Shown here in pieces: positions 23,458 through 38,706 of a stretch of DNA of 64,000 nt. How positions within the stretch are numbered: the first letter of the stretch is position 1; the number at the start of each line of letters is the position of its first letter. The DNA comes from Woeseiaceae bacterium (GTDB taxonomy: Bacteria; Pseudomonadota; Gammaproteobacteria; Steroidobacterales; Woeseiaceae). The notes beneath the pieces are model-generated. The model did not search any database, had not been told where the DNA came from, and was given only the letters and a program-made list of their open reading frames with translations. Both the position numbers and the translations under genes were made by a program. The DNA is taken from contig JASJCQ010000009.1 in the NCBI GenBank assembly GCA_030065915.1, positions 1 through 64,000 of the forward strand, read 5' to 3'.

Positions 23458-23491
23458 GATTGGAAGTTCCAGTTTGGGATGCGGGACAATC

Positions 23492-23504
23492 GTTACAATA
23501 TATC
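23492..23504. promoter_or_regulatory. Zur-box-like sequence, copy 1 side
   Basis: GTTACAATATATC agrees with 11 of 13 positions of the gammaproteobacterial Zur core GTTATAATATAAC. The flanks fit only partly. It lies between the peroxiredoxin-like gene and the zrgA-like gene, 110 bases before the latter. Weaker than the box at 34567. Confidence 0.5.
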
Positions 23505-23613
23505 TTTGTCGAGCTCGAACTGGAACTGGATTCTCGCGGAACAAGAGAACCGTCCTGCCGTCTATGTAGAATACGCTGCACCACAAGACAAACGGCCGAT
23601 ACAAGGACGCTCA

Positions 23614-24417
23614 ATGACCGTTGCTTTAGACAAGGCTCTCCCGGCGACAGTCCAGTCGCAGGACGACACACCCGGATTCGCAGCGGAGCGCGATCAAGCG
23701 GCCGGCAGCCCGCGCCTGATCGCTGCACTTGGTCTGTTGATGTTCGCCTGGCTTCCCTCATACGTGTCGGCGCAGCACGTCCATGGAGTCATCGACCTGG
23801 GCGTCGTGATTGAGGACCAGATGCTGGCGGTGTCTGTTGATGCACCCTTGTCCGACGTCGTTGGTTTTGAGCATGCGCCCGGGAATGAAGAGCAAGCATC
23901 CAGGCTGGAGAAAGCCGCGGCAATACTCGCCAACGCTGATCTGATGTTCGGCTTGACGGGGACGGCCGGCTGCAATGTTACCAGTACAGAGATTACGGCC
24001 CCGGACTACCTTGAGGCGCTGATCGCGGGAGCGGAGGATCACGACGATCATCACGGCCACGACCATGATGACCACGACAAAGACCATGACGGACACGGCC
24101 ATGAAGACCCCGATCACGACCACGACAGCCACGGTCACGATCATGACGGTCATGAACATGATGACGACCACGACAGCCACGGTCACGATCATGACGGTCA
24201 TGAACATGATGACGACCACGGTACCGAGCATGCCGAGCTCAATGCTGCTTACCAGTGGACCTGCCGTAACCCGTCGGAGCTCGATGCGCTCGCGCTTAGT
24301 TTCGTCGAGAGCTTCGTGAGCGTAGAGACGGTGCGGGTCCAGCTTCTCACGTCCGATGGGGCGCAGGTAATGAGCCTGACGGGTAAAGACACATCGCTGC
24401 CACTAGCTCGACGGTAG
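23614..24417 (+). CDS. zrgA: ZrgA-like (DUF2796) His-rich periplasmic zinc-binding protein
   Basis: 267 residues from ATG 23614; the frame is open upstream but overlaps the divergent gene. After a ~30-residue N-terminal extension comes a hydrophobic export signal (cleavage near VSA-QH, ~residue 53). HVHGVIDLGVVIEDQ and the C-terminal WTCRNPSELDAL region match DUF2796. Residues ~139-208 are almost pure His/Asp/Gly, partly built by a perfect 48-bp tandem duplication at 24121-24216. In Vibrio this family is the Zur-regulated ZrgA of a zinc import system. It is first in a tight operon with an ABC ATPase, permease and DUF3299 gene. Confidence 0.82.
   Translation: MTVALDKALPATVQSQDDTPGFAAERDQAAGSPRLIAALGLLMFAWLPSYVSAQHVHGVIDLGVVIEDQMLAVSVDAPLSDVVGFEHAPGNEEQASRLEKAAAILANADLMFGLTGTAGCNVTSTEITAPDYLEALIAGAEDHDDHHGHDHDDHDKDHDGHGHEDPDHDHDSHGHDHDGHEHDDDHDSHGHDHDGHEHDDDHGTEHAELNAAYQWTCRNPSELDALALSFVESFVSVETVRVQLLTSDGAQVMSLTGKDTSLPLARR
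24121..24216 (+). repeat. Perfect 48-bp tandem duplication in zrgA
   Basis: Bases 24121-24168 and 24169-24216 are identical. Each encodes 16 residues (HDSHGHDHDGHEHDDD), so the His-rich loop can grow or shrink in frame by slippage. Confidence 0.95.
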
Positions 24418-24422
24418 GCGCA

Positions 24423-25151
24423 GTGTCCGAACCGGGAGCGGAATACGCCCACGCAGTGTCGGTCGAGGGCCTGCGTTTTGGCTATACGGCAGGCGAAGAA
24501 ATTCTGTCGATCGATGCGCTGGTCATTGAGCCGACCCAGCGCGTTTTTCTCTATGGCCCGAGCGGTTGCGGCAAGAGCACGCTGCTTTCCATGATCGGTG
24601 GCGTGCTTGTCCCTCAGGACGGGCGTGTCTCCGTGTTGGGCCAGGATCTGTCGGCGATGAAGGGGTCCGGGCGCGACCGTGTTCGAGCCGACCACCTCGG
24701 GATCATCTTCCAGCAGTTCAACCTGGTGCCTTACCTGTCGGTCGTCGACAACGTATGCCTGCCGTGCCGATACTCCCGGCGCCGGCTGCAACGCGCGGAA
24801 TCGGACGACGGAACCGTGGAGGCATCGGCTGCACGACTGTTGTCCGAACTCGGCATTGATGACCGACTCCGTGCGAGGCGTTCGACAGAGCTCAGTGTCG
24901 GCCAGCAGCAGCGCGTGGCGGCGGCCCGGGCGCTGATCGGACGGCCTGAGCTGATCATCGCGGACGAACCCACGTCGTCGCTGGATGCCGATCGCCGACG
25001 CGATTTTGTAAGCCTGCTGCTCACCGAGTGCGACAGCGCCAACAGCACGGTCATATTCGTCAGTCACGATCAATCGCTTGCCAGTCATTTCGATGAGGCA
25101 ATTGACCTCAGGGCAATCAACCGGGCGGAGCGCGATTCCGATGCTGCATAG
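24423..25151 (+). CDS. ABC transporter ATP-binding protein (zinc module, copy 1)
   Basis: 242 residues starting at GTG 24423, five bases after zrgA. Walker A GPSGCGKST, Q-loop FQQFN, signature LSVGQQQRVAAARAL, Walker B LIIADEPTSSLDAD and the switch His (VSHD) are all intact. Sequence style is LolD/MacB, which pairs with FtsX-like permeases rather than with ZnuB-type importers. The gene overlaps the permease gene by 11 bases. It should power the metal-related transport or periplasmic hand-over of this operon. Confidence 0.9.
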   Translation: MSEPGAEYAHAVSVEGLRFGYTAGEEILSIDALVIEPTQRVFLYGPSGCGKSTLLSMIGGVLVPQDGRVSVLGQDLSAMKGSGRDRVRADHLGIIFQQFNLVPYLSVVDNVCLPCRYSRRRLQRAESDDGTVEASAARLLSELGIDDRLRARRSTELSVGQQQRVAAARALIGRPELIIADEPTSSLDADRRRDFVSLLLTECDSANSTVIFVSHDQSLASHFDEAIDLRAINRAERDSDAA

Positions 25152-26385
25152 CATTCGAAACACGTTTTCTCTGGGCTTCAAGAGCCTGTGGAACCGGCGT
25201 GGCACGGCGGCGTTGACGCTTGCCTCGATCGCGGTGAGCGCTGCGTTGCTGAGCGTCGTCGATCGTGTGAGGACCGACGCGCAGGTAAGCTTCGCCAATA
25301 CGATCTCCGGTACGGATCTGATCATCGGCGCACGCAGTGGCGACCTGAACCTGCTGCTGTACTCCGTCTTCAGGATCGGAAACCCGACCAACAACATCAG
25401 CTGGAACAGTTTCGAGACTATCGCAGAGCGCCGGGAAGTCGACTGGTTGATTCCGATCTCCCTGGGCGATGCCCACAAGGGATTCCGCGTCCTGGGCACC
25501 AACCTGGACTACTTTGAGCACTACCAATACGCGGATGGCAGGACGCTGGATCTCTCAGACGGCAGCACCTTTACGCGTGCCACCGACGCCGTCATCGGTG
25601 CCGAGGTTGCCGAGCGTCTCGGCTACGAGATCGGCCAGCCGATTGTCATATCCCACGGCCTGACGGCGACGAGTTTTGTCACGCACGACGACAACCCGTT
25701 TACCGTCGTCGGTGTGCTGGCGAGGACGGGCACGCCCGTCGACAGAACCGTGCATATCAGCCTGGCCGGCATGGACCTGATCCATGCCGGACCCGGCGAA
25801 TTCAGTCTTCCGTCCTCACTGGACAGTTATGAACCCGACGCCATCACCGCGGTGTTCGTCGGACTCAAGTCCCGGGTGGCCGTTTTCTCGGTGCAGCGAT
25901 TTCTCAACGAGTATGAGCGCGAGCCTTTGTCGGCGGTGATTCCAGGCGTCGCATTGCAGCAGCTTTGGGGGTTGATCGGTGTCGCCGAGTACGCGCTGTT
26001 GGGCGTTTCGGCGATGGTGGTTTTGGCCGGGGTGCTCGGGCTGCTCGCGACCCTGCTGGTCAGCCTGAATGAGCGTCGACGGGAAATGTCCGTGCTGCGT
26101 TCGGTCGGTGCGCGGCCGGGCCACGTGTTTTCGCTGCTGCTGTCGGAGGCCGCGTTGCTGGCGTTTCTTGGGGCACTCGCAGGATTGCTGGCTGTCCAAC
26201 TGGCCGTGATTCTCGTTCGCCCGTATGCACTGGCGGAGTTCGGGATACAGCTGAGTGTGGGCCTGCGAGTCTTTGATTTCGCGGTACTTGCTGGAATACT
26301 GTTAATCGCCGTGCTGGTCAGCATCATCCCGGCCTGGCGCGCGTATCGAAATTCACTTGCGGATGGCCTCACCGTCAAGATCTAA
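25141..26385 (+). CDS. FtsX-like ABC permease (zinc module, copy 1)
   Basis: 414 residues from ATG 25141 inside the end of the ATPase gene. One N-terminal helix (TAALTLASIAVSAALLSVV), a large periplasmic domain (~residues 40-280), then three C-terminal helices with the FtsX-type segment LLATLLVSLNERRREMSVLRSVGARPGHVF. This is the MacB/LolCE architecture. Such proteins usually transmit ATPase motion across the membrane rather than form a classical import channel. No His-rich insertion, unlike the copy-2 permease. Confidence 0.88.
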   Translation: MLHSIRNTFSLGFKSLWNRRGTAALTLASIAVSAALLSVVDRVRTDAQVSFANTISGTDLIIGARSGDLNLLLYSVFRIGNPTNNISWNSFETIAERREVDWLIPISLGDAHKGFRVLGTNLDYFEHYQYADGRTLDLSDGSTFTRATDAVIGAEVAERLGYEIGQPIVISHGLTATSFVTHDDNPFTVVGVLARTGTPVDRTVHISLAGMDLIHAGPGEFSLPSSLDSYEPDAITAVFVGLKSRVAVFSVQRFLNEYEREPLSAVIPGVALQQLWGLIGVAEYALLGVSAMVVLAGVLGLLATLLVSLNERRREMSVLRSVGARPGHVFSLLLSEAALLAFLGALAGLLAVQLAVILVRPYALAEFGIQLSVGLRVFDFAVLAGILLIAVLVSIIPAWRAYRNSLADGLTVKI

Positions 26386-26396
26386 ACGGAACATCT

Positions 26397-26936
26397 ATGG
26401 CTTTTTTGAAACACACGTTGCGTACAGGCGTCCTGTTGACGCTGATCTTCAGCAGCGACTCATTTGCCAAGGACATCGAGGAGATTACCTGGCGAGACCT
26501 GGTGCCTGAAGGCAGCGCCGTGCACATTCCGGTGCCTTCGCACGGCCCCGGTGGCGACGACCTTACCGGAAACGATGCCTGGAACGAAGGGGAGCCCGAT
26601 GCCGCGGTTCCGGCGCAGTCCCTGTCGGGAGGCGTGGTCGAGGACTACAACGACAAGCTCGTGAAGCTGCCCGGTTTCGTCGTTCCGCTCGAGTATTCGA
26701 ACAAGGGCAAGATCACGGAGTTTCTGCTGGTGCCTTATTTCGGCGCATGCATTCACTACCCGCCACCCCCGCACAACCAGATCGTTTATGTTGTGCTCGA
26801 AGAACCGGTCGCACTGAGTTCGATCTGGGACCCTGTCTGGGCGATCGGCAAGTTCACGGCGGAATCGCACGACTCCTACCTGGCGACTGCCGGCTACACG
26901 ATGGCTGACACGAAGCTGGAAGACTTCGAATACTAG
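26397..26936 (+). CDS. DUF3299 periplasmic protein (zinc module, copy 1)
   Basis: 179 residues with a signal peptide. The conserved block is KLVKLPGFVVPLEY...ITEFLLVPYFGACIHYPPPPHNQIVYV, where a Cys and a His could bind metal. It follows the permease by 11 bases. DUF3299 proteins occur with DUF2796 and this ABC pair in Zur-regulated operons. The role is probably periplasmic metal handling; the biochemical function is not established. Confidence 0.82.
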   Translation: MAFLKHTLRTGVLLTLIFSSDSFAKDIEEITWRDLVPEGSAVHIPVPSHGPGGDDLTGNDAWNEGEPDAAVPAQSLSGGVVEDYNDKLVKLPGFVVPLEYSNKGKITEFLLVPYFGACIHYPPPPHNQIVYVVLEEPVALSSIWDPVWAIGKFTAESHDSYLATAGYTMADTKLEDFEY

Positions 26937-27093
26937 GGCGGGTCGACCTGATCCGTACGTTCAGGGAAACACCGGCCGTCCGATTCGGCTAAGCTACACG
27001 TCTCGTTGACGAAGCGGGCCCGCCCAGGGGGAGCGCAGCACCGACTCGATCGTGCTGCCAGGGGCGACCGTAAACAAGAACAAAGGAACGGCC

Positions 27094-30000
27094 ATGTCAA
27101 AGACACTCCGCTATCTGATTGTTGCTCTCGCTTGCCTCGCAAGCCATCTCAGTACGCATGCTCACGCCGACGAAGCCCACCCGCTCGCCAGTCTTCCGCT
27201 CAGGAGCATCGGACCTGCGCTGACGTCCGGACGTATTTCCGACTTCGCTTTTCACCCGGAGCACGATCACGTCTATTACACCGCGGTATCGTCGGGTGGT
27301 CTGTTCAAGACCGAAAACAACGGCACGACCTGGACGCCGCTGTTCGACGGTGAGGGCTCCTACGCGCTGGGTGTCGTCGAACTCGATCCGGCCAATCCCA
27401 TGGTCGTCTGGGTGGGTACGGGCGAGAACAACGCGCAGCGCAGTGTCGGCTTCGGCGACGGCGTCTACAAGTCGATCGACGGAGGCGTCACCTGGAACAA
27501 CATGGGCCTCAAGGACTCGGGCCACATCAGCCAGATCTGGATCGATCCCGAGGATTCCGACACCGTGCTGGTCGCAGCACAGGGACCGCTGTGGAATTCA
27601 GGCGGGGATCGGGGACTGTACAAGACGACCGATGGTGGCGAGAACTGGGAGCGTATCCTGTCCGTCGACGAGCACACCGGCATCAACGAATTCGTGGTCG
27701 ATCCGAGAGACAGTCAGCGAATCGTCGCATCGAGCTACCAGCGCCGCCGGCATGTATGGACGCTGATCAACGGCGGCCCGGGCAGCGGCATCCACCGCAG
27801 CGAAGACGGCGGTGATACCTGGACCGAAATAACGACTGGGCTGCCAGAAGACAACATGGGTCGCATCGGCCTCGCCGGATCGCCCAGCGATCCGCACAGG
27901 ATCTACGCGATTATCGAGGGCAGCGACGACGAGCGCGGGGTCTATCATTCCAGCGACTTCGGCTTACGCTGGGAGAAACGCTCGGACCATATGACGACGA
28001 GCCCGCAGTACTACAACGAGCTGGTTGTCGACCCGGTCAACCCGGATCGTGTGTTCTCACTGGATACCTTTACCTTTGAGTCGAAGGATGGCGGTCGTAC
28101 GTGGTCCCGTCTCGGCATCGAATACCGCCACGTCGACGACCACGCGCTCTGGATCAATCCGGACAATACGGCGCACCTCATTATCGGCGGTGACGGCGGT
28201 ATCTACGAGAGCTACGACGACGGTGCGAACTGGCGGCATATCGGTAACCTGCCGATCGTCCAGTTCTATCGCATACAGCCCGACTATGAAGAACCGTTCT
28301 ACAACGTCTGTGGCGGCACGCAGGACAACAACTCCATGTGTGGACCGTCTCGAACGACCCTGCGTCACGGCATTGCCAATCGCGAGTGGGACCTGGTCCT
28401 GGCCGGCGATGGCTACGAGCCACAGTTTGACCCGGACGATTCCAACATCATCTACGCGCAGTACCAGTACGGCGGACTCGCTCGCTACGACAAGACCAGC
28501 GGTGAACGGGTGTACATCGTGCCGCACCCGGGCAGTGGGGAGAACAACTACAAGTGGAACTGGAACACGCCGCTGATCGTCAGCCCGCATAACAGCAAGC
28601 GAATTTACTATGCGGCGGAGAAACTGTTTCGTTCCGACGATCGCGGCGACAGTTGGGAGGCGGTCAGTCCGGACCTGACTCGCCAGCTCGATCGCAACAA
28701 ACTTCCGGTCATGGACCGCGTGTGGAGCATCGATACGATTGCAAAGAACGATTCGACGTCCATCTACGGCGCGGCGATTGCGTTGTCCGAAAGTACCCTG
28801 GTGGAAGGACTAATCTACGTCGGGACGGATGACGGCGTCATGAACGTGACCGAAGACGGCGGCCAGACCTGGCGCCGCACCGAGTCGTTCCGCGGAGTGC
28901 CCGACATGTCGCTGATCGAGGATACGGTCGCATCGCTGCACGACGCGGACGTCGCCTACGCGACGATCGACAACCACAAGCGCGGCGATCACAAGCCCTA
29001 CGTTCTGAAGACCGAGAACCGGGGGCGGAGCTGGTCCCTGATTTCTTCAGATCTGCCGGAGCGCGGTTCCGCACACACCATCGTTGAGGACCATGTCGAC
29101 CCCGACCTGCTGTTTGTCGGAACGGAGTTTGGCCTGTTCTTCACGCAGGACGGCGGATCGTCATGGCACCGCCTGAAGTCCGGACTGCCGACAATCTCCG
29201 TCCGCGACATTGAGATCCAGCGCCGCGAGAACGACCTCGTCGTTGGCACCTTTGGCCGCGGCATCTACATTCTTGACGACTATTCGCCGCTGCGCACCAA
29301 GCAGGGCGACGTAGAGTCGCAGCACCTGTTCGAAGTCCGCGATGCCTGGTCGTATGTCGTCGGCGACGTGCTGGGCTACGGCGAAAAAGGATTCCGGGGC
29401 GCAGACTTCTACAGTGCGCCAAACCCGCCTTTCGGAGCCGTGTTCACGTATCGCCTCGAGAACGCCATAGAAACTGCCAAAAAGACCCGTCGGAAGGCCG
29501 AGATCGATATTGAGAAAGAAGGCGGCGACACACCGTACCCGGACTGGGAGAGCGTTCGTGCGGAGGACCGGGAAGAAGATCCGGCGGTGCTGCTGATCGT
29601 GCGCGACAGCGACGGCAACGTCGTCAGTCGGGTCCTGGGTGAGACGTCGGCCGGTCTGCATCGGACTGCCTGGGACCTGCGTTGGCCCGCCACCGATCCG
29701 GTGAGCCTGACGCCGCCAGCCTTCCGTGCCCCATGGGCCTCCGACCCGCAAGGACCGCTGGCCGTCCCCGGAGAGTACACGGTCAGTCTCGCGATTCGAC
29801 AGCAGGGCACGTTGACTGAAGTCGACGGTCCACGCTCATTCACGGTCAAGTCGATGCCGCAGGGCAGCGAGACGAGCGACAATCCGGATGCTGTCCTGGC
29901 CTTCAAGCGCAAGGCCGGTGAGCTACACCGGGCCGTCGCCGGCGCCGGCCAATTGTCGGCCGCGGTGAACCAGCGAATCGATCACCTCAAGCGCGCGATT

Positions 30001-30348
30001 CCGCTGACGTCTTCCGCCGATGAAACACTGGAGCAACGGCTTCGCGACATCGAGGCGCGGCTCGACGACTTGAACGTATTGTTGTCGGGCGATACCAGCG
30101 TGTCGTCTCGAAACGAACCAACCCCGTGGTCGGTGACGCGTCGTGCGGACGTTGTCTACGGCCTGCTCCTGAACGTTCGTTCGGACGTGCCCGAACAGTA
30201 CGAGACGTCGTATGCGATCGCCGCGGCAGAGTTTCGCAAGGTCCTCGATGACCTGACGTCGATCGAGTCCGATCTTGCCGCGCTCGAGGCTGAGCTGGAG
30301 CGCCTTGGCGCACCGTATACGCCGGGGAGAGTGCCGAACTGGCGATAG
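27094..30348 (+). CDS. Secreted BNR/sortilin-like beta-propeller protein
   Basis: 1084 residues from ATG 27094, with a signal peptide (cleavage near AHA-DE). The first ~740 residues carry repeated Asp-box/BNR motifs, for example GLFKTENNGTTWTPL, GVYKSIDGGVTWNNM, GLYKTTDGGENWERI and GIHRSEDGGDTWTEI, as in VPS10/sortilin and glycosidase-like propellers. A C-terminal ~350 residues hold a strand-rich domain and a helical tail. Usually labelled glycosyl hydrolase, but I see no catalytic set. It lies 157 bases after the DUF3299 gene, so operon membership is open. Confidence 0.82.
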   Translation: MSKTLRYLIVALACLASHLSTHAHADEAHPLASLPLRSIGPALTSGRISDFAFHPEHDHVYYTAVSSGGLFKTENNGTTWTPLFDGEGSYALGVVELDPANPMVVWVGTGENNAQRSVGFGDGVYKSIDGGVTWNNMGLKDSGHISQIWIDPEDSDTVLVAAQGPLWNSGGDRGLYKTTDGGENWERILSVDEHTGINEFVVDPRDSQRIVASSYQRRRHVWTLINGGPGSGIHRSEDGGDTWTEITTGLPEDNMGRIGLAGSPSDPHRIYAIIEGSDDERGVYHSSDFGLRWEKRSDHMTTSPQYYNELVVDPVNPDRVFSLDTFTFESKDGGRTWSRLGIEYRHVDDHALWINPDNTAHLIIGGDGGIYESYDDGANWRHIGNLPIVQFYRIQPDYEEPFYNVCGGTQDNNSMCGPSRTTLRHGIANREWDLVLAGDGYEPQFDPDDSNIIYAQYQYGGLARYDKTSGERVYIVPHPGSGENNYKWNWNTPLIVSPHNSKRIYYAAEKLFRSDDRGDSWEAVSPDLTRQLDRNKLPVMDRVWSIDTIAKNDSTSIYGAAIALSESTLVEGLIYVGTDDGVMNVTEDGGQTWRRTESFRGVPDMSLIEDTVASLHDADVAYATIDNHKRGDHKPYVLKTENRGRSWSLISSDLPERGSAHTIVEDHVDPDLLFVGTEFGLFFTQDGGSSWHRLKSGLPTISVRDIEIQRRENDLVVGTFGRGIYILDDYSPLRTKQGDVESQHLFEVRDAWSYVVGDVLGYGEKGFRGADFYSAPNPPFGAVFTYRLENAIETAKKTRRKAEIDIEKEGGDTPYPDWESVRAEDREEDPAVLLIVRDSDGNVVSRVLGETSAGLHRTAWDLRWPATDPVSLTPPAFRAPWASDPQGPLAVPGEYTVSLAIRQQGTLTEVDGPRSFTVKSMPQGSETSDNPDAVLAFKRKAGELHRAVAGAGQLSAAVNQRIDHLKRAIPLTSSADETLEQRLRDIEARLDDLNVLLSGDTSVSSRNEPTPWSVTRRADVVYGLLLNVRSDVPEQYETSYAIAAAEFRKVLDDLTSIESDLAALEAELERLGAPYTPGRVPNWR

Positions 30349-30386
30349 GGTTCACGACGGCTGTGCGCTTCGCGTACAGTCCGGCC

Positions 30387-31154
30387 ATGCGTTCGCTGAC
30401 AGCATTGATCCTGCTTGCGCTGGCCGGCCTGGCCTGCGCCCATCCGGAGGACGAATTCTGTGTGCCGGGTGAGGGCGGGCTCGACCCCGCGCTCTGCGAG
30501 GAGCTGAATGCGATACAAAGCGGTAGCGAGCTGCGACCGCTGCTTGACGAGCAGGGTAATGAGCTCGGCTCGCTGGCTACCGCCTGGTTGTACACCGGTA
30601 TCGGCGTCCGCCATATCCTGCCGGGCGGTCTCGATCACATCCTGTTCGTGCTGGCCCTGTTCCTGACGTCGACGCGGCTCAAGGCACTGGCGCTGCAGGT
30701 TACGATGTTTACGCTGGCGCACAGCCTGACACTGGGCATGGCGGCGGCCGGGTGGATAAGCCTGAATTCGGGCTGGGTCGAGGCGCTGATCGCCGCCACG
30801 ATTGCGTTCGTCGCTATCGAAAATCTGTTTGTGAAACATCTGCCGAGCTGGCGGTTGCCGGTGGTCTTCCTGTTCGGACTACTGCACGGACTGGGCTTCG
30901 CCGGATTCTTCGGCGAGCTGGGGCTTCCGGAGAACCAGTTTCTCGCCGGGCTGGTCGGCTTCAACGTCGGGGTGGAAATCGGCCAGATCGGTGTCTTACT
31001 CGTAGCCCTGGCCCTGGCTACGGCATTGCGGCGCAGGTTCGAGGCGAAGCAGTTGCCCGAACTGACCTATCGGCGTTTCGTGGTTCTGCCCGGGTCGCTC
31101 GCTATTGCGGCCATCGGGTCGTTCTGGACGTTCGAGCGACTGCTTGCGATTTGA
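30387..31154 (+). CDS. HupE/UreJ family membrane protein
   Basis: 255 residues from ATG 30387 (a GTG eight codons earlier is the alternative). A signal peptide ends near CAHPED, a ~60-residue periplasmic part follows, then six or so helices with GIRHILPGGLDHILFVLAL-like and FTLAHSLTLG motifs and LLHGLGFAGF. This is the HupE/UreJ second subfamily; related proteins move nickel or cobalt. Being 38 bases after the BNR gene, close to the zinc operon, a metal role is plausible. Confidence 0.82.
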   Translation: MRSLTALILLALAGLACAHPEDEFCVPGEGGLDPALCEELNAIQSGSELRPLLDEQGNELGSLATAWLYTGIGVRHILPGGLDHILFVLALFLTSTRLKALALQVTMFTLAHSLTLGMAAAGWISLNSGWVEALIAATIAFVAIENLFVKHLPSWRLPVVFLFGLLHGLGFAGFFGELGLPENQFLAGLVGFNVGVEIGQIGVLLVALALATALRRRFEAKQLPELTYRRFVVLPGSLAIAAIGSFWTFERLLAI

Positions 31155-31155
31155 C

Positions 31156-31182
31156 GGTCCGCCGCCGCAACGACGGCGGACC
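31156..31182. terminator. Hairpin between convergent genes
   Basis: GGTCCGCCG and CGGCGGACC form a 9-bp perfect stem around a 9-base loop between the HupE-like gene and the M3 peptidase gene, which converge here. There is no T-tract, so it is a probable but weak bidirectional terminator. Confidence 0.55.
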
Positions 31183-31196
31183 ATCCATTCTGCTCC

Positions 31197-33359
31197 TTAG
31201 CTTCCGGTGGCGAAGCCACGTCCCTCCAGCAGCGGATCGATGCTGGGGTCCTTGCCGCGGAACTCGCGATACAGTTCGTCGGCCTCACGCAGACCGCCGG
31301 CTTCGTAAATCCACTTCTTCAGGCGGCCAGCGGTTTCCGGGTCGAAAATGTCCTCGGCTTCGAGGAAGGCATTGAAACCGTCGGCATCGAGAATCTCGGA
31401 CCACAGATACGCGTAGTAGCCCGCCGAGTAGCCGCCCGCGAAGGTGTGCGAGAAGTACTGCGAACGGTAGCGCGGCTCGATTTCGTCGATCAGGCCGTAC
31501 TCATCGAGAATCTTCTCTTCGAAAGCCTTCGCGTCGGTGATCTTGCTGGCTTCCTCCGAGCTCAGCATGTGCCAGCGAAGGTCGAGCAGCGAGGCAGCGA
31601 CATACTCCGTCGTGGCAAAGCCCTGGTTGTGGTTTGCCGCCGCGAGCAGTCGCTCGACGAGATCCGTCGGAATAACTTCGCCGGTCTCGTAGTGGCGCGC
31701 GTAGAGTTCGAGCATCAGCGGCTGTGACGTCCAGTGCTCGAGGATCTGCGCCGGAAACTCCGTGTAGTCCCTCGGGCCGTCTACGCCTGAAAAGGTCGGA
31801 TAGTCGATCTGCGTCAGCAGGCCGTGCAGTCCGTGTCCGAACTCGTGGAACAAAGTCTCGACTTCCGAGAAACGCATCAGCGCCGGCGAACCCTCCGGCG
31901 GCTTGGACAGGTTCATGTTGTTGGTGACGATCGGACGAATCCGCTCACCCTCGATGTTCGACGTTGGACGATAGCTGTTCATCCATGCGCCGCCGCGCTT
32001 CGAGTCTCGTGCGAACATGTCCATCATGAACACGCCGAGGTGCTCGCCTTCTTCATCCTTGATTTCGTAGGCCGTCACCACGTCATTCCAGACCGGAACT
32101 TCGATCTCTTCGAGGGTGACGTTGAACAGGCGTTTCGCCATCTCGAAGGCGCCATCCGTTACGGCACCGAGCTCGAAGTAAGGCTTCAGCTGGTTCTCAT
32201 CGAGGTTGAAACGTTGTGCGCGCAGCTTCTCCGAGTAGTGCCACCAGTCATGGCCCTCGAAGGTGAACTCATCGCCGATCAGCGCCTGCATGTCGGCACG
32301 TTCCTGCTTGGCTTGTGCGAGTCCGGGCTCCCAGACGCGCAACAGGAAGTCTTCGGCTCCTTGCGGCGTCTTGGCCATGCGCACGTCGAGCTGATAGTGC
32401 GCGTGAGACGCGTACCCCATCAACTCCGCACGCTTGGCGCGCAGCTGCGCAACTTCGATCAGCAGCGGGCTGTTGTCGTATTCGCCCGAATTGGAGCGAT
32501 TCGTGTAGCCGTCGAACAAGCGTTTGCGCAGCTCGCGGTTCTCCGATTGCGTCATAAAGGTCTCGTAGACGCTGCGGTTCAGGCCGAGAACCCAGGCCTG
32601 CTTCTCGTCGTCCCAGATGCTGGCTTTGAAGTCTTCGGAAAGACCGGCCGTGTCGGCCTCGTCGGTCAGCTCGATCGTGAAGGCCTTGGTGGAAGCCAGC
32701 AGGTTCTGTGCAAACTGCGTCGTGAGCACGGACAGACGGGAATTGATGTCGGCTACTTCGGCTTTGACGTCGTCCGTCAGTCCCGCGCCTGCGCGGACGA
32801 AGCGGCGATGCGTCAGTTCCAGCAGCCTGGCTTCCTGCTCACCCAGGTCCAGGCTTTCACGCTGTTCGTAGACGGCCTGGACGCGCTTGAACAGCTCGTC
32901 GTTGAAGGTGATCGCGTCGGTTTCGCGCGACCACATCGGACCGATTTCCTGCTGCAGCTGGCGCAGTTCGTCGTTCAGCTCCGTGCCGACCAGCGGGTAA
33001 AACGTGTACCGAACCTGAGAGACGGTGGAGCCGGCCTTCTCCAGTGCAAGGATCGTGTTGACGAACGTTGGCGGTTCCGGGTTGTTGACGATCGCGTCAA
33101 TCTCGGCGCGCAGCTCCAAAACGCCTTTCTTAAAGGCCGGCAAAAAGTGCGAGTCCTCGATTTCCGCAAATGGCGGTACGCCGAAGGGCGTGTCCCACTC
33201 TTCGAGGAACGGATTACCTGCCAGTTCGCTGTCTGTAACGGTCATGTCGGGTAGATCACCTGATTCCTGATTTGCAGAGGTCGAAGCCTCGTCGCTGCCG
33301 CTGCAGGCAGCCAGAATTGCGGTCGCCGAGAGCAGCGTCGCGAGTTGTTTCAGTTTCAT
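31197..33359 (-). CDS. M3 family metallopeptidase (Dcp/oligopeptidase-like) lipoprotein
   Basis: 720 residues. An N-terminal signal with lipobox LAAC predicts membrane anchoring in the envelope. The zinc motif HEFGH lies near residue 503 with downstream Glu in the EFPAQILEHW segment, as in M3A peptidases. Size and sequence fit the peptidyl-dipeptidase Dcp/oligopeptidase A family, which removes dipeptides or cleaves short peptides. Zinc dependence is known for the family. No operon partner. Confidence 0.93.
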   Translation of the reverse strand: MKLKQLATLLSATAILAACSGSDEASTSANQESGDLPDMTVTDSELAGNPFLEEWDTPFGVPPFAEIEDSHFLPAFKKGVLELRAEIDAIVNNPEPPTFVNTILALEKAGSTVSQVRYTFYPLVGTELNDELRQLQQEIGPMWSRETDAITFNDELFKRVQAVYEQRESLDLGEQEARLLELTHRRFVRAGAGLTDDVKAEVADINSRLSVLTTQFAQNLLASTKAFTIELTDEADTAGLSEDFKASIWDDEKQAWVLGLNRSVYETFMTQSENRELRKRLFDGYTNRSNSGEYDNSPLLIEVAQLRAKRAELMGYASHAHYQLDVRMAKTPQGAEDFLLRVWEPGLAQAKQERADMQALIGDEFTFEGHDWWHYSEKLRAQRFNLDENQLKPYFELGAVTDGAFEMAKRLFNVTLEEIEVPVWNDVVTAYEIKDEEGEHLGVFMMDMFARDSKRGGAWMNSYRPTSNIEGERIRPIVTNNMNLSKPPEGSPALMRFSEVETLFHEFGHGLHGLLTQIDYPTFSGVDGPRDYTEFPAQILEHWTSQPLMLELYARHYETGEVIPTDLVERLLAAANHNQGFATTEYVAASLLDLRWHMLSSEEASKITDAKAFEEKILDEYGLIDEIEPRYRSQYFSHTFAGGYSAGYYAYLWSEILDADGFNAFLEAEDIFDPETAGRLKKWIYEAGGLREADELYREFRGKDPSIDPLLEGRGFATGS

Positions 33360-33835
33360 TTTGACGTCCAGTTTTGCCTTGCCACCCCGTTCGGGTGGGC
33401 TGTGAGGAGCGGATTCTTACAAAAGAAACCGCTTTTTTGAATCCTGGAGGTGACAGACCGGCCAAATGACAGAAGGTTCGAGATCCGCGTCGTCGATCCG
33501 GGTATTCGCGCCGGGCATGGTTTCCGCCGAAGTAAAAACCCGCGAAACCGTGCAATCGTGCCGGTTGCAAACATCCACTGACTCCTGGTTGGCCGCGTCC
33601 GTGCGGCCGCATCTCTTTCTCAGCAGACGTGACGCAACTCGAACGCCGGAACGCCCACGAAGCGGTTGCGTCAATAGTTTCTGCGCAATGCTTGCTATGC
33701 GCCAGTGTACTCACCGCCGCCGGAAAACAGAAGAGACATCGATTTTTTCGAAGTTTCTGCGGTCGTTTTTCGACTTGAATTTAAGGTTTCTCGTGCGTAA
33801 AAAGGCGCTCCCACCCCCAAGACTGAGGATTTTTC
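33360..33835. other. Intergenic region between divergent genes
   Basis: About 475 bases between the M3 peptidase gene and the secreted NTF2-like gene. Both promoters should be here. GAGG precedes the ATG at 33836 by seven bases. Short frames overlapping it on the minus strand look non-coding. No Zur box or strong palindrome noticed. Confidence 0.5.
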
Positions 33836-34402
33836 ATGCGTAACCTGACAGTTTCAAAAGTCGCGTTGATTGCTTCGGCCATGACGTTCTCGACCGCGTT
33901 GATGGCCGGCCAGTTTTCCGATCACGTAAACGAGCTGCCGAAAGGGCCGGCGATCACCCAGAGCGACGTCGAGAACGCCCAGAAAGCCTGGGGCGACGCC
34001 GTTGTTGCCATCGGCAAAGCCGGCGATGATGCCGCTGCTGTCGCCAAGAAAGCGGCCAAGACAGCCTACGCATTCGAGCTGGGCCCGATCCAGTTCAAGC
34101 CGACGCTGGCATCAGAACAGCCGTTCCGACCGGACCTCGAAGGCACGCTTAGCTACTTCGTGTCTGGCAATGACAAGTTCGCTGAGGACTCCGGTTTCGC
34201 GCTCAAGCCGTGGTCCAACGTTCGTTTCGATAATCACACGGTGAATATGCAGGGCAACATTGCCATCGCCATGGGCCACTACTACTTCACGGGTCCGGAC
34301 GGCTCGGAAACGAAGGTTGAGTACACGAAAGGTTACGTCAAGACCGAAGACGATCGTGTGTTGATCTTCCTGCAGGACTCATCTCTGCCGTATCAGAGGT
34401 AA
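33836..34402 (+). CDS. Secreted NTF2-like protein
   Basis: 188 residues with a signal peptide (cleavage near LMA-GQ). The mature part starts with a helix (AITQSDVENAQKAWGDAVVAIGKAGDDAA) and ends with strands (NVRFDNHTVNMQGNIAIAMGHYYFTGPDG... YTKGYVKTEDDRVLIFLQDSSLPY), an NTF2/SnoaL-like layout. Homologues are often mislabelled phosphoribosyl-AMP cyclohydrolase; the histidine-pathway motifs are not present. Periplasmic; function unknown. It ends at a strong hairpin. Confidence 0.75.
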   Translation: MRNLTVSKVALIASAMTFSTALMAGQFSDHVNELPKGPAITQSDVENAQKAWGDAVVAIGKAGDDAAAVAKKAAKTAYAFELGPIQFKPTLASEQPFRPDLEGTLSYFVSGNDKFAEDSGFALKPWSNVRFDNHTVNMQGNIAIAMGHYYFTGPDGSETKVEYTKGYVKTEDDRVLIFLQDSSLPYQR

Positions 34403-34423
34403 CAAAACCGCGGCAACGATCTG

Positions 34424-34448
34424 CAGGGCCCGGCCTCGCCGGGCCCTG
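34424..34448 (+). terminator. Strong hairpin terminator
   Basis: CAGGGCCCGGC-CTC-GCCGGGCCCTG is an 11-bp perfect stem with a 3-base loop, 22 bases after the stop of the secreted NTF2-like gene, followed by TTTCGTT. Strong stem, weak T-tract. Confidence 0.8.
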
Positions 34449-34566
34449 TTTCGTTGGCAGCGAGTCCCTGCTGCGAGCGGCAGGGGCTCGCTTTCGTTTA
34501 GTTTTGCGAATTCAGTGGCTCATCGCCGGGCGATGCTGCCCAGCGCTGCCTTGTGTGCGATTCCCT

Positions 34567-34587
34567 AAATGTTATAAAATCACATTT
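34567..34587. promoter_or_regulatory. Zur box
   Basis: A 21-bp site with arms AAATGT and ACATTT around TATAAAATC. The left half AAATGTTATA and the outer right half ACATTTC match the gammaproteobacterial Zur consensus (arms GAAATGTTATA and its complement). It lies 137 bases before the MerC-like gene, first of an operon that ends with a Zur-type regulator. Confidence 0.8.
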
Positions 34588-34724
34588 CACAACAACTCGA
34601 TCGCGACCAGTTCGACGCTCGCAGACAATCTCCCTGAACCGTTGCAGCCCTTCTCGAAGGTCCGGTAGCGACCGGAACGTCTTTTTGCGAATGCTGACGA
34701 CCTCACTGAGCAGGACCCCCGATA

Positions 34725-35171
34725 ATGAGCACCAGTACCACCGTCTTACCGACCGATCTGGGTCGCGGCGTCTCCAGGCTTAACCTGCTGGCCGCTGGTC
34801 TGTCGGCCGTGTGCTTGATCCATTGTCTGGCTTTGCCCGTGTTGATCTCATTGCTGGCGCTGTCCGTCCCGTTTACCGAGAATGAATTCGTTCATGTGGG
34901 CCTGGTGCTGATGGCGGCTCCCGCAACGCTCTGGGTGATGCACAAGTCACGCTCGCACCGGAACCATCGACTGTTTATTGCTGTGGCGGCCATCGGGCTT
35001 ACGCTGTTGCTGGCAGGCACCTTCTTCTCTCCGCTTGCCAGCTTCGAAGAACACCTGACTATCGTCGGCGCTCTGCTGCTCGTGACGGCGCATATCAGGC
35101 ACTGGTCCAATCTCCGGGTTGCGAGTCGAACTGTGGGGCACATCGATAGTCAAAGCCGATCTACCGGCTAA
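34725..35171 (+). CDS. MerC-domain membrane protein
   Basis: 148 residues with four hydrophobic helices. The first helix contains VCLIHCLALPV, the Cys/His/Pro motif of MerC-type proteins; the end is a basic His-containing tail. MerC takes up mercury in mer operons, while chromosomal relatives sit in metal-homeostasis loci. Here it leads a Zur-boxed operon, so zinc or related metal traffic is the better guess. The following ATPase gene starts 22 bases later. Confidence 0.8.
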   Translation: MSTSTTVLPTDLGRGVSRLNLLAAGLSAVCLIHCLALPVLISLLALSVPFTENEFVHVGLVLMAAPATLWVMHKSRSHRNHRLFIAVAAIGLTLLLAGTFFSPLASFEEHLTIVGALLLVTAHIRHWSNLRVASRTVGHIDSQSRSTG

Positions 35172-35193
35172 CGGACGTCCATCCTTTGCCCGA

Positions 35194-35841
35194 ATGAGCG
35201 CTGCTGTAGAAGTAACCGATCTTCGCTTTGGCTACGGTGACCGACCGGTAGTCGACGTTTCCCGCTGCGAACTGGAGCAAGGCGCCAGCCTGGCTGTCAT
35301 CGGTCCATCCGGTTGTGGCAAAACGACCTTCCTGCACTTGCTGGCCGGACTCCTGGAGCCGGGCTCCGGCAGTATCCGACTGATGGGACAGGACTTGTCC
35401 GAGTTGAGCGGTGCCGCGTTGGATCGCTTTCGCGGTCGGCACATCGGCCTCGTTTTTCAGCAGTTCCACCTGATGCGGGCATTGAACGTCCGGGCCAACC
35501 TCCAGCTGGCCGCGAAACTCGCGCGTTGCAAGCTAGAGAGTGACGAACTGGATGGGCTGTGCCGGCGGCTCGGATTGGATGGCCTTGAGCATCACAAGCC
35601 ATCCATGTTGAGCCAGGGACAAGCCCAGCGCGTAGCGATCGCGCGCGCGCTGGTCCACCGCCCGCCCATCATCATGGCCGATGAGCCAACATCCTCGCTC
35701 GATGACAACAATGCGAAACAGGTTATCGGTTTATTGAAAGAAACGGCCGCGGCCGCCGACGCTGCGTTACTCGTTGTCACACACGACCAGCGTGTCCGCG
35801 GCCTGCTGGATACTGAGCTCGAACTCAAGGCGCCGGCATGA
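35194..35841 (+). CDS. ABC transporter ATP-binding protein (zinc module, copy 2)
   Basis: 215 residues from ATG 35194. Walker A GPSGCGKTT, FQQFH Q-loop, signature LSQGQAQRVAIARAL, Walker B IIMADEPTSSLDD and VTHD are intact. It is LolD-like, shorter than the copy-1 ATPase and clearly its paralogue. Its stop overlaps the permease start (ATGA). Confidence 0.9.
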   Translation: MSAAVEVTDLRFGYGDRPVVDVSRCELEQGASLAVIGPSGCGKTTFLHLLAGLLEPGSGSIRLMGQDLSELSGAALDRFRGRHIGLVFQQFHLMRALNVRANLQLAAKLARCKLESDELDGLCRRLGLDGLEHHKPSMLSQGQAQRVAIARALVHRPPIIMADEPTSSLDDNNAKQVIGLLKETAAAADAALLVVTHDQRVRGLLDTELELKAPA

Positions 35842-37268
35842 CCTGGCTACGGCTGGCCTTCGCAAACCTGGGATTGTCGCCGCTGACGTCGGCGGTGAAC
35901 GTTCTGCTGATGACCCTCGGCACGGCCAGTATCGTGCTTCTGCTGCTTGCCGGTTCCCAGGTGTCCGACACGATGTCTCGCGACGCCAGGGGTGTCGACC
36001 TCGTGTTGGGCGCCAAAGGCAGCCCGGTGCAGCTGGTGCTTGCGGCCGTCTACCACGCGGATGTTCCGCCAGGAAATATTCCGCTGGCAGCCGCCGAGCG
36101 CTGGGCAGGTGACCCAAGAATCGCCCGCGCCGTGCCGCTGTCACTGGGCGACAGCTATCGCGGCTTCCGCATTGTCGGTACCAGCGCGGAGATCAAGGAA
36201 ATCTATGGCGCCGAACTGGTCTCCGGACGCGCCTGGGCTCAGACGATGGAAGCCGTCGTCGGCTCCGCCGTCGCTGAGGCGGCGGACCTGGAGGTCGGCA
36301 CCCAGTTCGCCGGTGCGCACGGGCTCGGCGATGGTGGTCATATTCACGACTACCGCCCGTACCGCGTTGTCGGGGTACTGGAACCGACCGGCTCCGTTGT
36401 CGATCGATTGATACTGACCTCCCTGGACAGCGTCTGGGACCTGCATTCCGGCGATCACTCGCACGACCACGAGGAACACGACGACTCACATGGCGATGAT
36501 GCCCATGACCATGAGGATCGCGGACACTCGGACGGCGAAAACGCCCACGGTCACGAGGGACATGACCACTCGAAGGTCGACGAGGCCCACGACCATCAGG
36601 ATCTCGACCACTCGCAGGATAGCGATGTCCACGGTCACGAGGAACACGACCACTCGCACGGCGACGAGGATCGGGCGCACTCGCACGACGAAGCGGACAA
36701 GCAACGCGCGCACGAACGCAGCAGAAGCGAGATAACGGCGATGCTGTTGACCTATCGCTCGCCGATGGCAGCAGCGACCCTGCCGCGCCAGGTCAATGCC
36801 GATTCGGACTTGCAGGCGGCAGCGCCCGCCGTTGAGGTGTCCCGAGTGTTGCAGCTCATCGGGATCGGGCTGGACGGCCTGGAGGCCTTCGCCTGGGTCC
36901 TCATTGTCACGGCCGGATTGTCGGTGTTTGCAGCGCTCTACGGGTCACTGCATTCACGAAGGCGCGACCTCGCTACCTTACGCTGCCTCGGCGCGACACG
37001 TTCGGAACTGCTGATTTCGCTGCTGCTCGAGGGACTGCTGCTGTCCGTCATCGGCGTTGCGCTCGGTTTTGCTGCTGGCCATGTCGCAATGGAAATCCTG
37101 GGCGGCTGGCTGGAAAGCGCCCGTGGCGTTGCGCTGACCGGCTGGGTCTGGCTGCCGGTCGAGACGGTCCTGTTGCTAGGCTTGTTTGCGGTCGGCGTCA
37201 TTGCGGCGGCCATCCCCGCGGTGCAAGCTTATCGAACCGACCCCGCCAGAACGCTGTCAGAGAATTAA
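35838..37268 (+). CDS. FtsX-like ABC permease with His-rich insertion (copy 2)
   Basis: 476 residues. Architecture is as in the copy-1 permease: an N-terminal helix, a periplasmic domain (SLGDSYRGFRIVGTSAEIKEIYGAELVSGRAW parallels SLGDAHKGFRVLGTNLDYFEHYQYADGRTL in copy 1), then three C-terminal helices (SLHSRRRDLATLRCLGATRSEL). Residues ~203-300 are an insertion of repeated His-Asp/Glu clusters, expected to lie in the periplasm and bind several zinc ions. It replaces, in cis, the His-rich loop that copy 1 has in ZrgA. Confidence 0.88.
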   Translation: MTWLRLAFANLGLSPLTSAVNVLLMTLGTASIVLLLLAGSQVSDTMSRDARGVDLVLGAKGSPVQLVLAAVYHADVPPGNIPLAAAERWAGDPRIARAVPLSLGDSYRGFRIVGTSAEIKEIYGAELVSGRAWAQTMEAVVGSAVAEAADLEVGTQFAGAHGLGDGGHIHDYRPYRVVGVLEPTGSVVDRLILTSLDSVWDLHSGDHSHDHEEHDDSHGDDAHDHEDRGHSDGENAHGHEGHDHSKVDEAHDHQDLDHSQDSDVHGHEEHDHSHGDEDRAHSHDEADKQRAHERSRSEITAMLLTYRSPMAAATLPRQVNADSDLQAAAPAVEVSRVLQLIGIGLDGLEAFAWVLIVTAGLSVFAALYGSLHSRRRDLATLRCLGATRSELLISLLLEGLLLSVIGVALGFAAGHVAMEILGGWLESARGVALTGWVWLPVETVLLLGLFAVGVIAAAIPAVQAYRTDPARTLSEN

Positions 37269-38173
37269 TGGCCCTTGAGAACGTGAAAAACCTGAATCTT
37301 TGCCTCGCACTGGCTGCGTTGCTGGCGATGCTCCCGACACACGCGCTCGCGCAGCACGCGGGCGGCACGCTAACCCAGGATGAGATGGGCGCGGAGCCCG
37401 ATTTCGATACGGAGTTCAAAGAGTGGGAGCCCCAGGCGGCGATGGATTCGGTCGGGGTGGAAGACGCCGGCGAGATGTCGCTCAAGCCCGTCGTCGAGAA
37501 CGGTTACCTCGACGAACAGGGCCGCCTGGTCGTCGATATCTACCAGGAGGATTTCGCCTACCTCGCCGTCGAAGTTCTGTCGGAGCGTGACGAGTACGTG
37601 GACGGCGCAGCACTGGAGATCTCAATCGACGGCACCAGCGAGTTGTATGTGCCGCCGGACCCTGAAACCAACCAGTACGGCGTGTTCGAGTTCTCGTTGA
37701 TCGGCGGTGACATGGGTCTGGACACAGTGACGGTCTCGCTGGGTGAGGTCACCATCGACATACTGGTCAACATCATCAGTTTTGAAGCTTTTACGATGCC
37801 GATTCCCGAGGTTGTCGAAGGTGGTATTCCCTGGGAGGCGCTGCTCAAGGCCGAAGTGACGTTTGACGAGTACACACTGCTCGCGTCATTCCCCGACGAG
37901 GTTAGCGAGCGTGACGGTGAAACTCTGAAGATCTCCGGGTTTATGATGCCGCTGGAGACCGAGCCGAAACAGAAGTGGTTCCTGCTGACATCGAATCCGC
38001 CGCATTGCTTCTTCCACATTCCGGGCGGTGCTGCGGGCGTGATCGAGGTTTTTTCCGAGGAAGGAATCGAGGTATCGTGGGAGCCGGTCATCCTCGAAGG
38101 GCGTTTCGAAGTACTGGCGAAGAGCGAGAGCGCCGTGTACCAGTTGCACGATGCCCAATTGGTCGAAAACTAG
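37268..38173 (+). CDS. DUF3299-like periplasmic protein (copy 2)
   Basis: 301 residues with a signal peptide (cleavage near ALA-QH). The start overlaps the permease stop (TAATG). An acidic N-terminal half (~residues 30-200) has no known domain. The last ~90 residues (LKISGFMMPLETEPKQKWFLLTSNPPHCFFH...) resemble the DUF3299 block of the copy-1 protein, with PPHCFFH as likely metal ligands. So it is a larger paralogue carrying an extra domain. Probably works with the ABC pair in the periplasm. Confidence 0.72.
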   Translation: MALENVKNLNLCLALAALLAMLPTHALAQHAGGTLTQDEMGAEPDFDTEFKEWEPQAAMDSVGVEDAGEMSLKPVVENGYLDEQGRLVVDIYQEDFAYLAVEVLSERDEYVDGAALEISIDGTSELYVPPDPETNQYGVFEFSLIGGDMGLDTVTVSLGEVTIDILVNIISFEAFTMPIPEVVEGGIPWEALLKAEVTFDEYTLLASFPDEVSERDGETLKISGFMMPLETEPKQKWFLLTSNPPHCFFHIPGGAAGVIEVFSEEGIEVSWEPVILEGRFEVLAKSESAVYQLHDAQLVEN

Positions 38174-38223
38174 GTCGCGTTGAGGCTTTGCGAGGATGTG
38201 CCGAACGATGAAAGAGGCAGTTG

Positions 38224-38706
38224 ATGTCTGGTCAGATTAAGGAAACGTCCGGATCTGCGGCAGCTGATGCGTCCATCAGCCTCGCGGAGGAGCGTTGCAA
38301 GGCTGCCGGCGAACGGCTGACGCCGGCTCGTCGCGAGGCCTACCGCGCAATGCTCGAACAGGACAAGCCGCTATCGGCCTACGAACTCATTGCCGTGCTC
38401 GAAGAGCTCAAGGGCAAGAAGATAGCGCCGCTGACCGTCTACCGGCACCTGGATTTCCTGATACGCGTAGGTCTCGTTCACCGGCTCGAGTCGACACACT
38501 CCTACGTCGCATGTGTTCACCCCGATCATGCGCACGAAACTCACTACCTGCTGTGTTCGGAGTGCGGCAGCGCGGATGAAGTCGAATCCAGAGCGCTTGG
38601 CAGTCTCTTGGACGAGATTGCGGATCGTCACGGCTTCCAGCCGGAGAATGCCATTGTCGAGATCAAGGGCGTCTGCGGAGACTGCGCTACCGACGAGGAA
38701 AAGTAA
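38224..38706 (+). CDS. zur: Fur-family regulator, probably Zur
   Basis: 160 residues. The winged helix (LTPARREAYRAMLEQDKPLSAYELIAVLE, then PLTVYRHLDFLIRVGLVHRLES) is followed by a metal domain with Cys97, HPDHAHETHYLLC, C111-x2-C114 and C151-x2-C154, the two CxxC pairs that hold structural zinc in Zur. It sits 50 bases after the DUF3299-like gene, in an operon with a Zur box at its head, so it would repress its own operon when zinc is ample. ATG 38224 chosen over the adjacent TTG. Confidence 0.88.
   Translation: MSGQIKETSGSAAADASISLAEERCKAAGERLTPARREAYRAMLEQDKPLSAYELIAVLEELKGKKIAPLTVYRHLDFLIRVGLVHRLESTHSYVACVHPDHAHETHYLLCSECGSADEVESRALGSLLDEIADRHGFQPENAIVEIKGVCGDCATDEEK

Follow-up and report, generated by a model that had tools for sequence, protein, structure and literature searches.

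Gene Content and Organisation of the Locus

The window, i.e., the whole stretch of DNA analysed here, comprises positions 1 to 64,000 of contig JASJCQ010000009.1 of a Woeseiaceae bacterium (assembly GCA_030065915.1). It carries two gene modules, copy 1 (23614–26936) and copy 2 (34725–38706), each combining an ATP-binding cassette (ABC) ATPase with a MacB/FtsX-type permease and a DUF3299 periplasmic protein. The initial annotation recognised a ZrgA/ATPase/permease/DUF3299 set and a MerC/ATPase/permease/DUF3299-like/Zur set, and Pfam and NCBIfam scans found all nine genes in place. It also assigned both modules to one locus; they do lie near each other, but a single operon is contradicted by the 7.8 kb and the intervening genes that separate them, as well as by the presence of a separate predicted Zur-type site for each, strong at 34566 and weak at 23487. 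The intervening region contains genes for a sortilin/BNR-repeat protein (27094–30348, plus strand; PF15902, 8.4e-29) and a HupE/UreJ-type membrane protein (30363–31154, plus strand; PF13795, 1.1e-45), a minus-strand M3 peptidase gene, and a small open reading frame (ORF) at 33836–34402.

Copy 1, located on the plus strand, has the composition of a Zrg/PA4063–PA4066-type system, with all four components in one operon. Its first gene (23614–24417) encodes ZrgA, a periplasmic histidine-rich zinc-binding protein (DUF2796; PF10986, 4e-41), which matches the solved PA4063 structure 7ahw (6.8e-21) and the entry 8ezw, 'Zinc-binding protein' (2.7e-13), and scores 153.5 against the NCBIfam ZrgA model, below the cut-off of 185. 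It is followed by the gene of a LolD/MacB-like ATPase (24423–25151; PF00005, 4.1e-29), whose best NCBIfam models are DevA, FtsE, YbbA, and LolD, all under their cut-offs, and by those of a permease without a histidine loop (25141–26385; PF02687, 3.9e-18; PF12704, 9.8e-14) and a DUF3299 protein of the ZrgE/PA4066 type (26397–26936; PF11736, 1.9e-41), matching PDB entry 4hsp at 4e-32. No gene for ZrgD (DUF2607) was recognised in the window, though no profile search for it was made.

Copy 2, also on the plus strand, begins with the gene of a MerC-family membrane protein (34725–35171; PF03203, 6.4e-18) of a CxxHC subfamily, with residues C30, H33, C34, H57, and H123. The genes of the ATPase (35194–35841; PF00005, 2.5e-31), the permease (35838–37268; MacB_PCD and FtsX domains), and a periplasmic protein with an Ig-like domain and a DUF3299 domain (37268–38173) follow, with one to four bases shared between successive reading frames. 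The DUF3299 match of the latter protein covers its C-terminal part only and is close to the threshold (PF11736, 1.5e-4; 22.3 bits, the cut-off being 22). The last gene (38224–38706; PF01475, 6e-14) encodes a Zur-type FUR regulator; its ATG is at 38224, and the ORF is listed from a TTG at 38221.

Relationship of the Two Modules

The components of the two modules are related to each other. The permeases give a BLASTP match of 2e-24 with 32% identity over the best stretch (30–32% overall), the ATPases are 38% identical, and the DUF3299 proteins share 29% identity over 94 residues (9e-7). The shared permease motifs pointed out initially can be traced through the alignment, where the SLGD...GFR...GT, HG...H, and G.L...G...DR columns match between the two copies and 24 relatives of copy 2.

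On a permease tree of 41 rows, rooted at midpoint only and with some long branches flagged by the program, the two copies fall into two deeply split clades, each with 100/100 support. The copy-1 clade contains 11 other permeases, including that of a Pseudomonas aeruginosa plasmid operon with the order DUF2796–ATPase–permease–DUF3299, while the copy-2 clade unites permeases of Gammaproteobacteria, Burkholderiales, Kordiimonadaceae, and Bacteroidota. Under this rooting, the copy-2 permease thus lies outside the Zrg clade (split 100/100), and it does not group with unrelated transporters, both permeases being MacB-like. Their nearest relatives are found in other genomes, with identities of 93% (copy 1) and 82% (copy 2), and the nearest named ones are labelled Woeseiaceae in both cases. 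The proposal that the modules are paralogous is therefore correct as regards kinship, while a local or recent duplication is rejected because the permeases belong to separate deep clades; the copies are ancient paralogues by this tree. Judged from the sequences, copy 2 is an ancient sister type of the ZrgA-ZrgC-ZrgB-ZrgE/PA4063–PA4066 operon.

The Vibrio ZrgABCDE system, which like copy 1 comprises ZrgA, an ATPase, a MacB-like permease, and a DUF3299 protein (ZrgE), belongs to a Zur-regulated zinc gene set according to PMC9817125 and PMC9820375. The P. aeruginosa PA4063–PA4066 operon, in its plasmid copy, has the same gene order as copy 1, and the copy-1 ZrgA and DUF3299 proteins match its structures 7ahw and 4hsp. 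Relative to both systems, copy 2 lacks ZrgA and is distinguished by the histidine loop of the permease, the Ig-like domain on the DUF3299 protein, and the inclusion of MerC and Zur genes in the operon.

Permease and Periplasmic Protein of Copy 2

The copy-2 permease, with its MacB_PCD and FtsX domains, four helices, and large periplasmic domain, is a type VII ABC permease. Its structural model (predicted local distance difference test score, pLDDT, 76.8; most of the histidine loop below 50 or disordered) matches the folds of MacB, LolCDE, and HrtBA, type VII systems working by mechanotransmission, and the ATPase is a separate protein as in LolCDE and HrtBA. Unlike these systems, copy 2 is accompanied by genes of the zinc-starvation type, has a histidine-rich loop, and has no recognised MacA-like partner; in the neighbour families compared with Pfam, neither MacA nor TolC partners of a MacAB-TolC system were recognised, no genome-wide search having been made.

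The loop of the copy-2 permease comprises 94 residues, 23 of which are histidines, and is periplasmic. When homologues were mapped onto the window proteins by alignment, 117 of the 120 best-listed for copy 2 had at least four histidines in the loop that follows the MacB-like core (median 15.5), compared with only 5 of the 120 best-listed for copy 1, 106 of which had no histidine there; since they were drawn from the best 120 of each search, both samples represent near relatives. The five histidine-bearing copy-1 permeases (within the set P0241–P0360) are perhaps intermediates between the two types. ZrgA, in turn, is absent from copy 2 in the window, and no ORF with a best match to ZrgA above 35 bits occurs in any of the 80 loci described below. 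In our reading, the metal-catching segment would be a separate protein, ZrgA, in the copy-1 type and a loop of the permease in the copy-2 type.

For the Ig-DUF3299 protein, a model with a pLDDT of 87.1 was obtained, and its second Foldseek match was 4hsp (PA4066; 9.6e-5, probability 1.00), most of the other top matches being Ig-like or S-layer domains. An alignment of 72 rows contains one invariant cysteine, which aligns with a cysteine of copy 1, and one nearly invariant histidine; these residues could possibly form a metal site.

Distribution of the Copy-2 Type

Scanning of the genome collection yielded 121 relatives, of which 80 were kept as loci; the 29 copy-2 loci considered here, chosen by score, are those with both a permease and an Ig-DUF3299 gene. 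All but one are titled Gammaproteobacteria or subgroups of this class, the exception (L012) being titled Candidatus Binatia. A Zur gene was labelled near copy 2 in at least 18 of the 29 loci (directly behind the DUF3299 gene in 15), and a MerC gene in at least 17 (directly ahead of the ATPase gene in 11), with MerC revealed in three further loci (L006, L013, and L021) by a PF03203 search. The complete order MerC–ATPase–permease–DUF3299–Zur was found in eight loci. Recurrent neighbours also included CobW (at least 14), DUF1826 (at least 9), and a TonB receptor (at least 7). All these counts are lower bounds, since labels required more than 35 bits to window proteins; some loci are cut by contig ends, and the names CobW, TonB, DUF1826, and PhoX derive from Pfam matches of one representative each. 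The MerC and Zur-like genes observed initially within copy 2 are thus indeed part of it, in an arrangement that recurs across loci and is not peculiar to this genome.

The Ig-DUF3299 alignment matched 10 of the 370 genomes of the class, this one included, and 9 of 272 genera, some matches covering the DUF3299 part only. Nine of the 107 family genomes matched the permease alignment; both copies are present in this genome (G000) and in G086, and G069 matched through copy 1 only. Among loci L023–L080, ATPase–permease pairs belonging to the copy-2 clade are present in Bacteroidota, where a labelled DUF3299-like gene is mostly missing, and in Burkholderiales, where a short DUF3299-like gene mostly accompanies them.

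Zur-Type Regulator and Predicted Zur Boxes

The best NCBIfam model for the regulator encoded at the end of copy 2 is Zur (2.3e-31; 108.8 bits, below the curated cut-off of 167). Upstream of the operon, at 34566–34588 (no strand assigned), a predicted Zur box was identified that agrees with the gammaproteobacterial consensus at 19 of 22 positions. The best site in thirty simulated 64-kb windows (first-order Markov) had 15 matches, and apart from the copy-2 box no site in the genome comes within three mismatches of the 19-base core, the control giving none; on these grounds a chance origin is rejected. Of the 29 copy-2 loci, 25 were usable, and in 12 of these a consensus box with a score of at least 15 is found where the operon approximately starts; the frequency of such boxes elsewhere in these loci would predict only 0.76. 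Control of copy 2 by Zur is thus well supported as a prediction.

The predicted box upstream of zrgA (23487–23509, no strand assigned) is weaker, with only 14 of 22 consensus matches, about 1.3 such sites per 64 kb being expected from the simulations. Nevertheless, a position weight matrix trained without this box ranks it second in the window, with a score of 19.0 and the next site at 8.3. The orthologous promoter in G086 has a box of 26.1, in which the 17 bases CGTTACAATATATCTTT are identical; because of this conservation the copy-1 box was retained. The link of the two modules to zinc and Zur, suggested initially, is supported at the level of predicted sites, though for copy 1 only tentatively. 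In G069, which carries copy 1 only, the Zur gene is divergent and a TonB gene follows a strong box. Ahead of zrgA in its copy-1 operon is an ORF of 251 aa that matches no Pfam family, itself preceded by a doubtful ORF of 88 aa that overlaps a Zur-type site (score 18.3, position 4999); this segment is L160, 4133–5156, minus strand.

Several genes adjoin the boxes and modules. An AhpC/TSA peroxiredoxin gene (22915–23457, minus strand) starts only about 30 bp from the copy-1 box, which may therefore control it as well; in G086 the divergent gene at this position is CobW. Downstream of copy 1, the sortilin-like and HupE genes lie on the same strand and possibly share its transcript; their order is kept in G086, and the HupE protein could be another metal carrier. 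A PhoX gene (38788–40689, minus strand) is convergent to Zur in the window and in L001, whereas in L022, L028, L066, L078, L002, and L011 it follows copy-2, Zur, or TonB genes closely and in the same orientation. PhoX is an Fe/Ca alkaline phosphatase and hence not zinc-dependent, and it is possible that it serves as a Zur-controlled zinc-sparing phosphatase; among the open-licence PMC articles listed, none links PhoX and Zur by title.

MerC Proteins of the CxxHC Subfamily

MerC, a four-helix membrane protein, is known as a mercury carrier, and the window protein belongs to the same family, PF03203, which matches 63 of the 107 family genomes. Among 30 MerC loci of the family, compared over their Pfam match intervals, the residues aligned to C30, H33, C34, H57, and H123 are conserved in 29, 28, 30, 29, and 29 rows, respectively, and the CxxHC motif is complete in 28. 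Eighteen of the 30 have a box scoring at least 15 within 200 bp upstream of the gene, as judged with a matrix derived from different loci, and none occurred at 86,237 other positions of the 30 loci. In all nine family carriers, no more than 1.7 kb separates the MerC gene from the permease match, including G069, where it closes the copy-1 operon divergent from Zur and the box is at the other end of the operon; MerC genes with boxes of their own also occur in family genomes without the module. The genome under study has a second MerC gene (G000:C10:32201-32533; L161, 8166–8576, minus strand) with a sub-threshold Zur-type site of 11.3 upstream, and G105, a single contig of 4.06 Mb from the same family, has a MerC gene with a box of 25.3.

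The window MerC thus differs from the mercury carrier in its conserved CxxHC motif and two further histidines, in the Zur boxes frequent in its subfamily, and in having no mer genes as neighbours in the window. The only MerC found in a mer cluster, L123 in G034, adjoins MerR, MerT, and HMA proteins and has no box, no CxxHC motif, and none of the three histidines; it may serve as a natural control, albeit as a single case. As this protein differs in both box and motif, a mercury role of the window MerC is rejected. Among the open-licence PMC articles listed, none places MerC in a Zur regulon by title, and the main text of the Zur review PMC6103462 contains no word starting with 'mercur'. Since the CxxHC subfamily (28 of 30) often has its own box (18 of 30), these MerC proteins may be zinc carriers.

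Zinc Importers Not Detected in the Genome

ZnuABC resembles the modules in being controlled by Zur (predicted here for the modules). However, profiles of ZnuA (PF01297), the ABC-3 permease (PF00950), and ZIP (PF02535) had no match in this genome, which is 99.98% complete, the search not extending to NRAMP, P-type, and CorA-type transporters; in 14 control genomes the same profiles matched in 11, 13, and 8, respectively. With no ZnuA, ZnuB, or ZIP found, the organism may rely on operons such as those described here. ZnuA was also not found in the eight other family carriers or in G129. ABC-3 matches better than 1e-7, a threshold of our own choice, were present in 0 of the 9 family carriers versus 53 of the 98 other genomes (Fisher p 0.003), and at the tool's threshold of 1e-3 in 2 of 9 versus 63 of 98 (p 0.027), both tests being uncorrected for kinship.

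Possible Function of the Modules

Taken together, these data favour a zinc-starvation role of both copies, whichever the transport direction may be. To the two modules we assign, with a probability of about 0.5, the role of separate zinc-starvation operons that would capture zinc on a histidine-rich segment, hand it over at the expense of ATP, and deliver it for uptake by the linked MerC. Zinc-loaded Zur would most likely repress both operons and, being encoded at the end of copy 2, itself as well. On derepression, periplasmic zinc would be caught by ZrgA (copy 1) or by the permease loop (copy 2); the ATPase–permease pair would act as a mechanotransmitter of the MacB/LolCDE kind, which lacks a classical metal channel, using ATP to move its periplasmic domains; and the DUF3299 protein would help to pass the metal on to a carrier in the inner membrane, for which the linked CxxHC MerC is the likeliest candidate. 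The initial proposal of a periplasmic metal-delivery machine is consistent with the permeases being of the MacB/FtsX rather than of the classical importer type, while the transport mechanism is our inference. The zinc link of the copy-1 type has already been published, and its unusual MacB-like architecture is discussed in PMC9820375 and PMC11481552. A more specific and only tentative version is a two-part importer, in which MerC would carry zinc through the inner membrane and the mechanotransmitter, with its histidine antenna and Ig-DUF3299 protein, would load MerC using ATP, forming the main high-affinity route where no ZnuABC is found in the family.

Several observations weigh against the proposed function. 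A Zur gene was not labelled in 11 of the 29 copy-2 loci, and 13 of the 25 usable ones have no box, some loci in both cases being cut by contig ends; the copy-1 box taken alone is not beyond chance, the Zur model match is under its curated cut-off (167), and 12 of the 30 MerC loci, including the second MerC of this genome and that of G069, have no box at threshold. The putative zinc-carrying role of MerC is deduced from motif, linkage, and boxes. Two carriers, G071 and G072, have partial ABC-3 matches over the Pfam cut-off (21.3 and 26.2 against 20.1 bits), which in our reading probably represent other permeases, and G071 has a ZIP match. Moreover, ZnuA is present in 8 of the 9 wider-class genomes matching the Ig-DUF3299 alignment, so the module is not a general substitute for ZnuABC; a simple replacement is therefore rejected as a general rule, although this family does follow the pattern. 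Since the module and a strong ABC-3 match are both missing from many genomes of the family, other zinc routes must exist. For the P. aeruginosa counterpart, PMC11481552 reports no relevant difference in zinc concentration.

The same source proposes for that counterpart the export of a pyochelin–cobalt complex rather than zinc import, which, along with the MacB/LolCDE/HrtBA fold of the copy-2 permease, suggests that both modules could be MacB-type exporters of a metal chelator or its complex, switched on in zinc starvation, with the histidine-rich parts stripping or buffering metal. We consider this rather unlikely: no chelator-biosynthesis, MacA-like, or TolC-like protein was found among those recurrent neighbour families that were compared with Pfam (a part of all families, with no genome-wide search), and Vibrio cholerae requires ZrgA for normal growth under zinc deficiency in a znuA background (PMC9820375), the work on this species and V. 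parahaemolyticus arguing for zinc uptake (PMC9820375 and PMC9817125). It is likewise doubtful that the modules form a periplasmic metallation machine, loading or moving zinc among envelope proteins, with import left to MerC or another carrier alone. The MacB-like fold, the periplasmic partners, the Ig-like domain of the copy-2 DUF3299 protein, and the boxed MerC genes in family genomes without the module would fit such a function, but MerC and the module are linked in all nine family carriers, which points to a single pathway.

A role of copy 2 and MerC in the handling of cobalt, copper, or mercury, with the Zur-like protein being a different FUR-family sensor, is improbable. HupE proteins usually carry nickel or cobalt, MerC proteins owe their name to mercury, and the Zur match below the curated cut-off would leave room for another sensor; however, the boxes match the gammaproteobacterial Zur consensus, the mer-cluster MerC is different, and the recurrent neighbours include DUF1826, which is linked to zinc, and CobW. 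COG0523/CobW-type proteins are connected with zinc in PMC6103462 and in the title of PMC2770081.

The literature on MacB-like permeases in zinc starvation is split between zinc uptake and export of metal–chelator complexes, and the sister type without ZrgA, the Zur-linked MerC, and a host in which ZnuABC was not detected offer clean ways to test that split. If CxxHC MerC proteins do carry zinc, new names would be needed for proteins that are now called after mercury resistance in such genomes.

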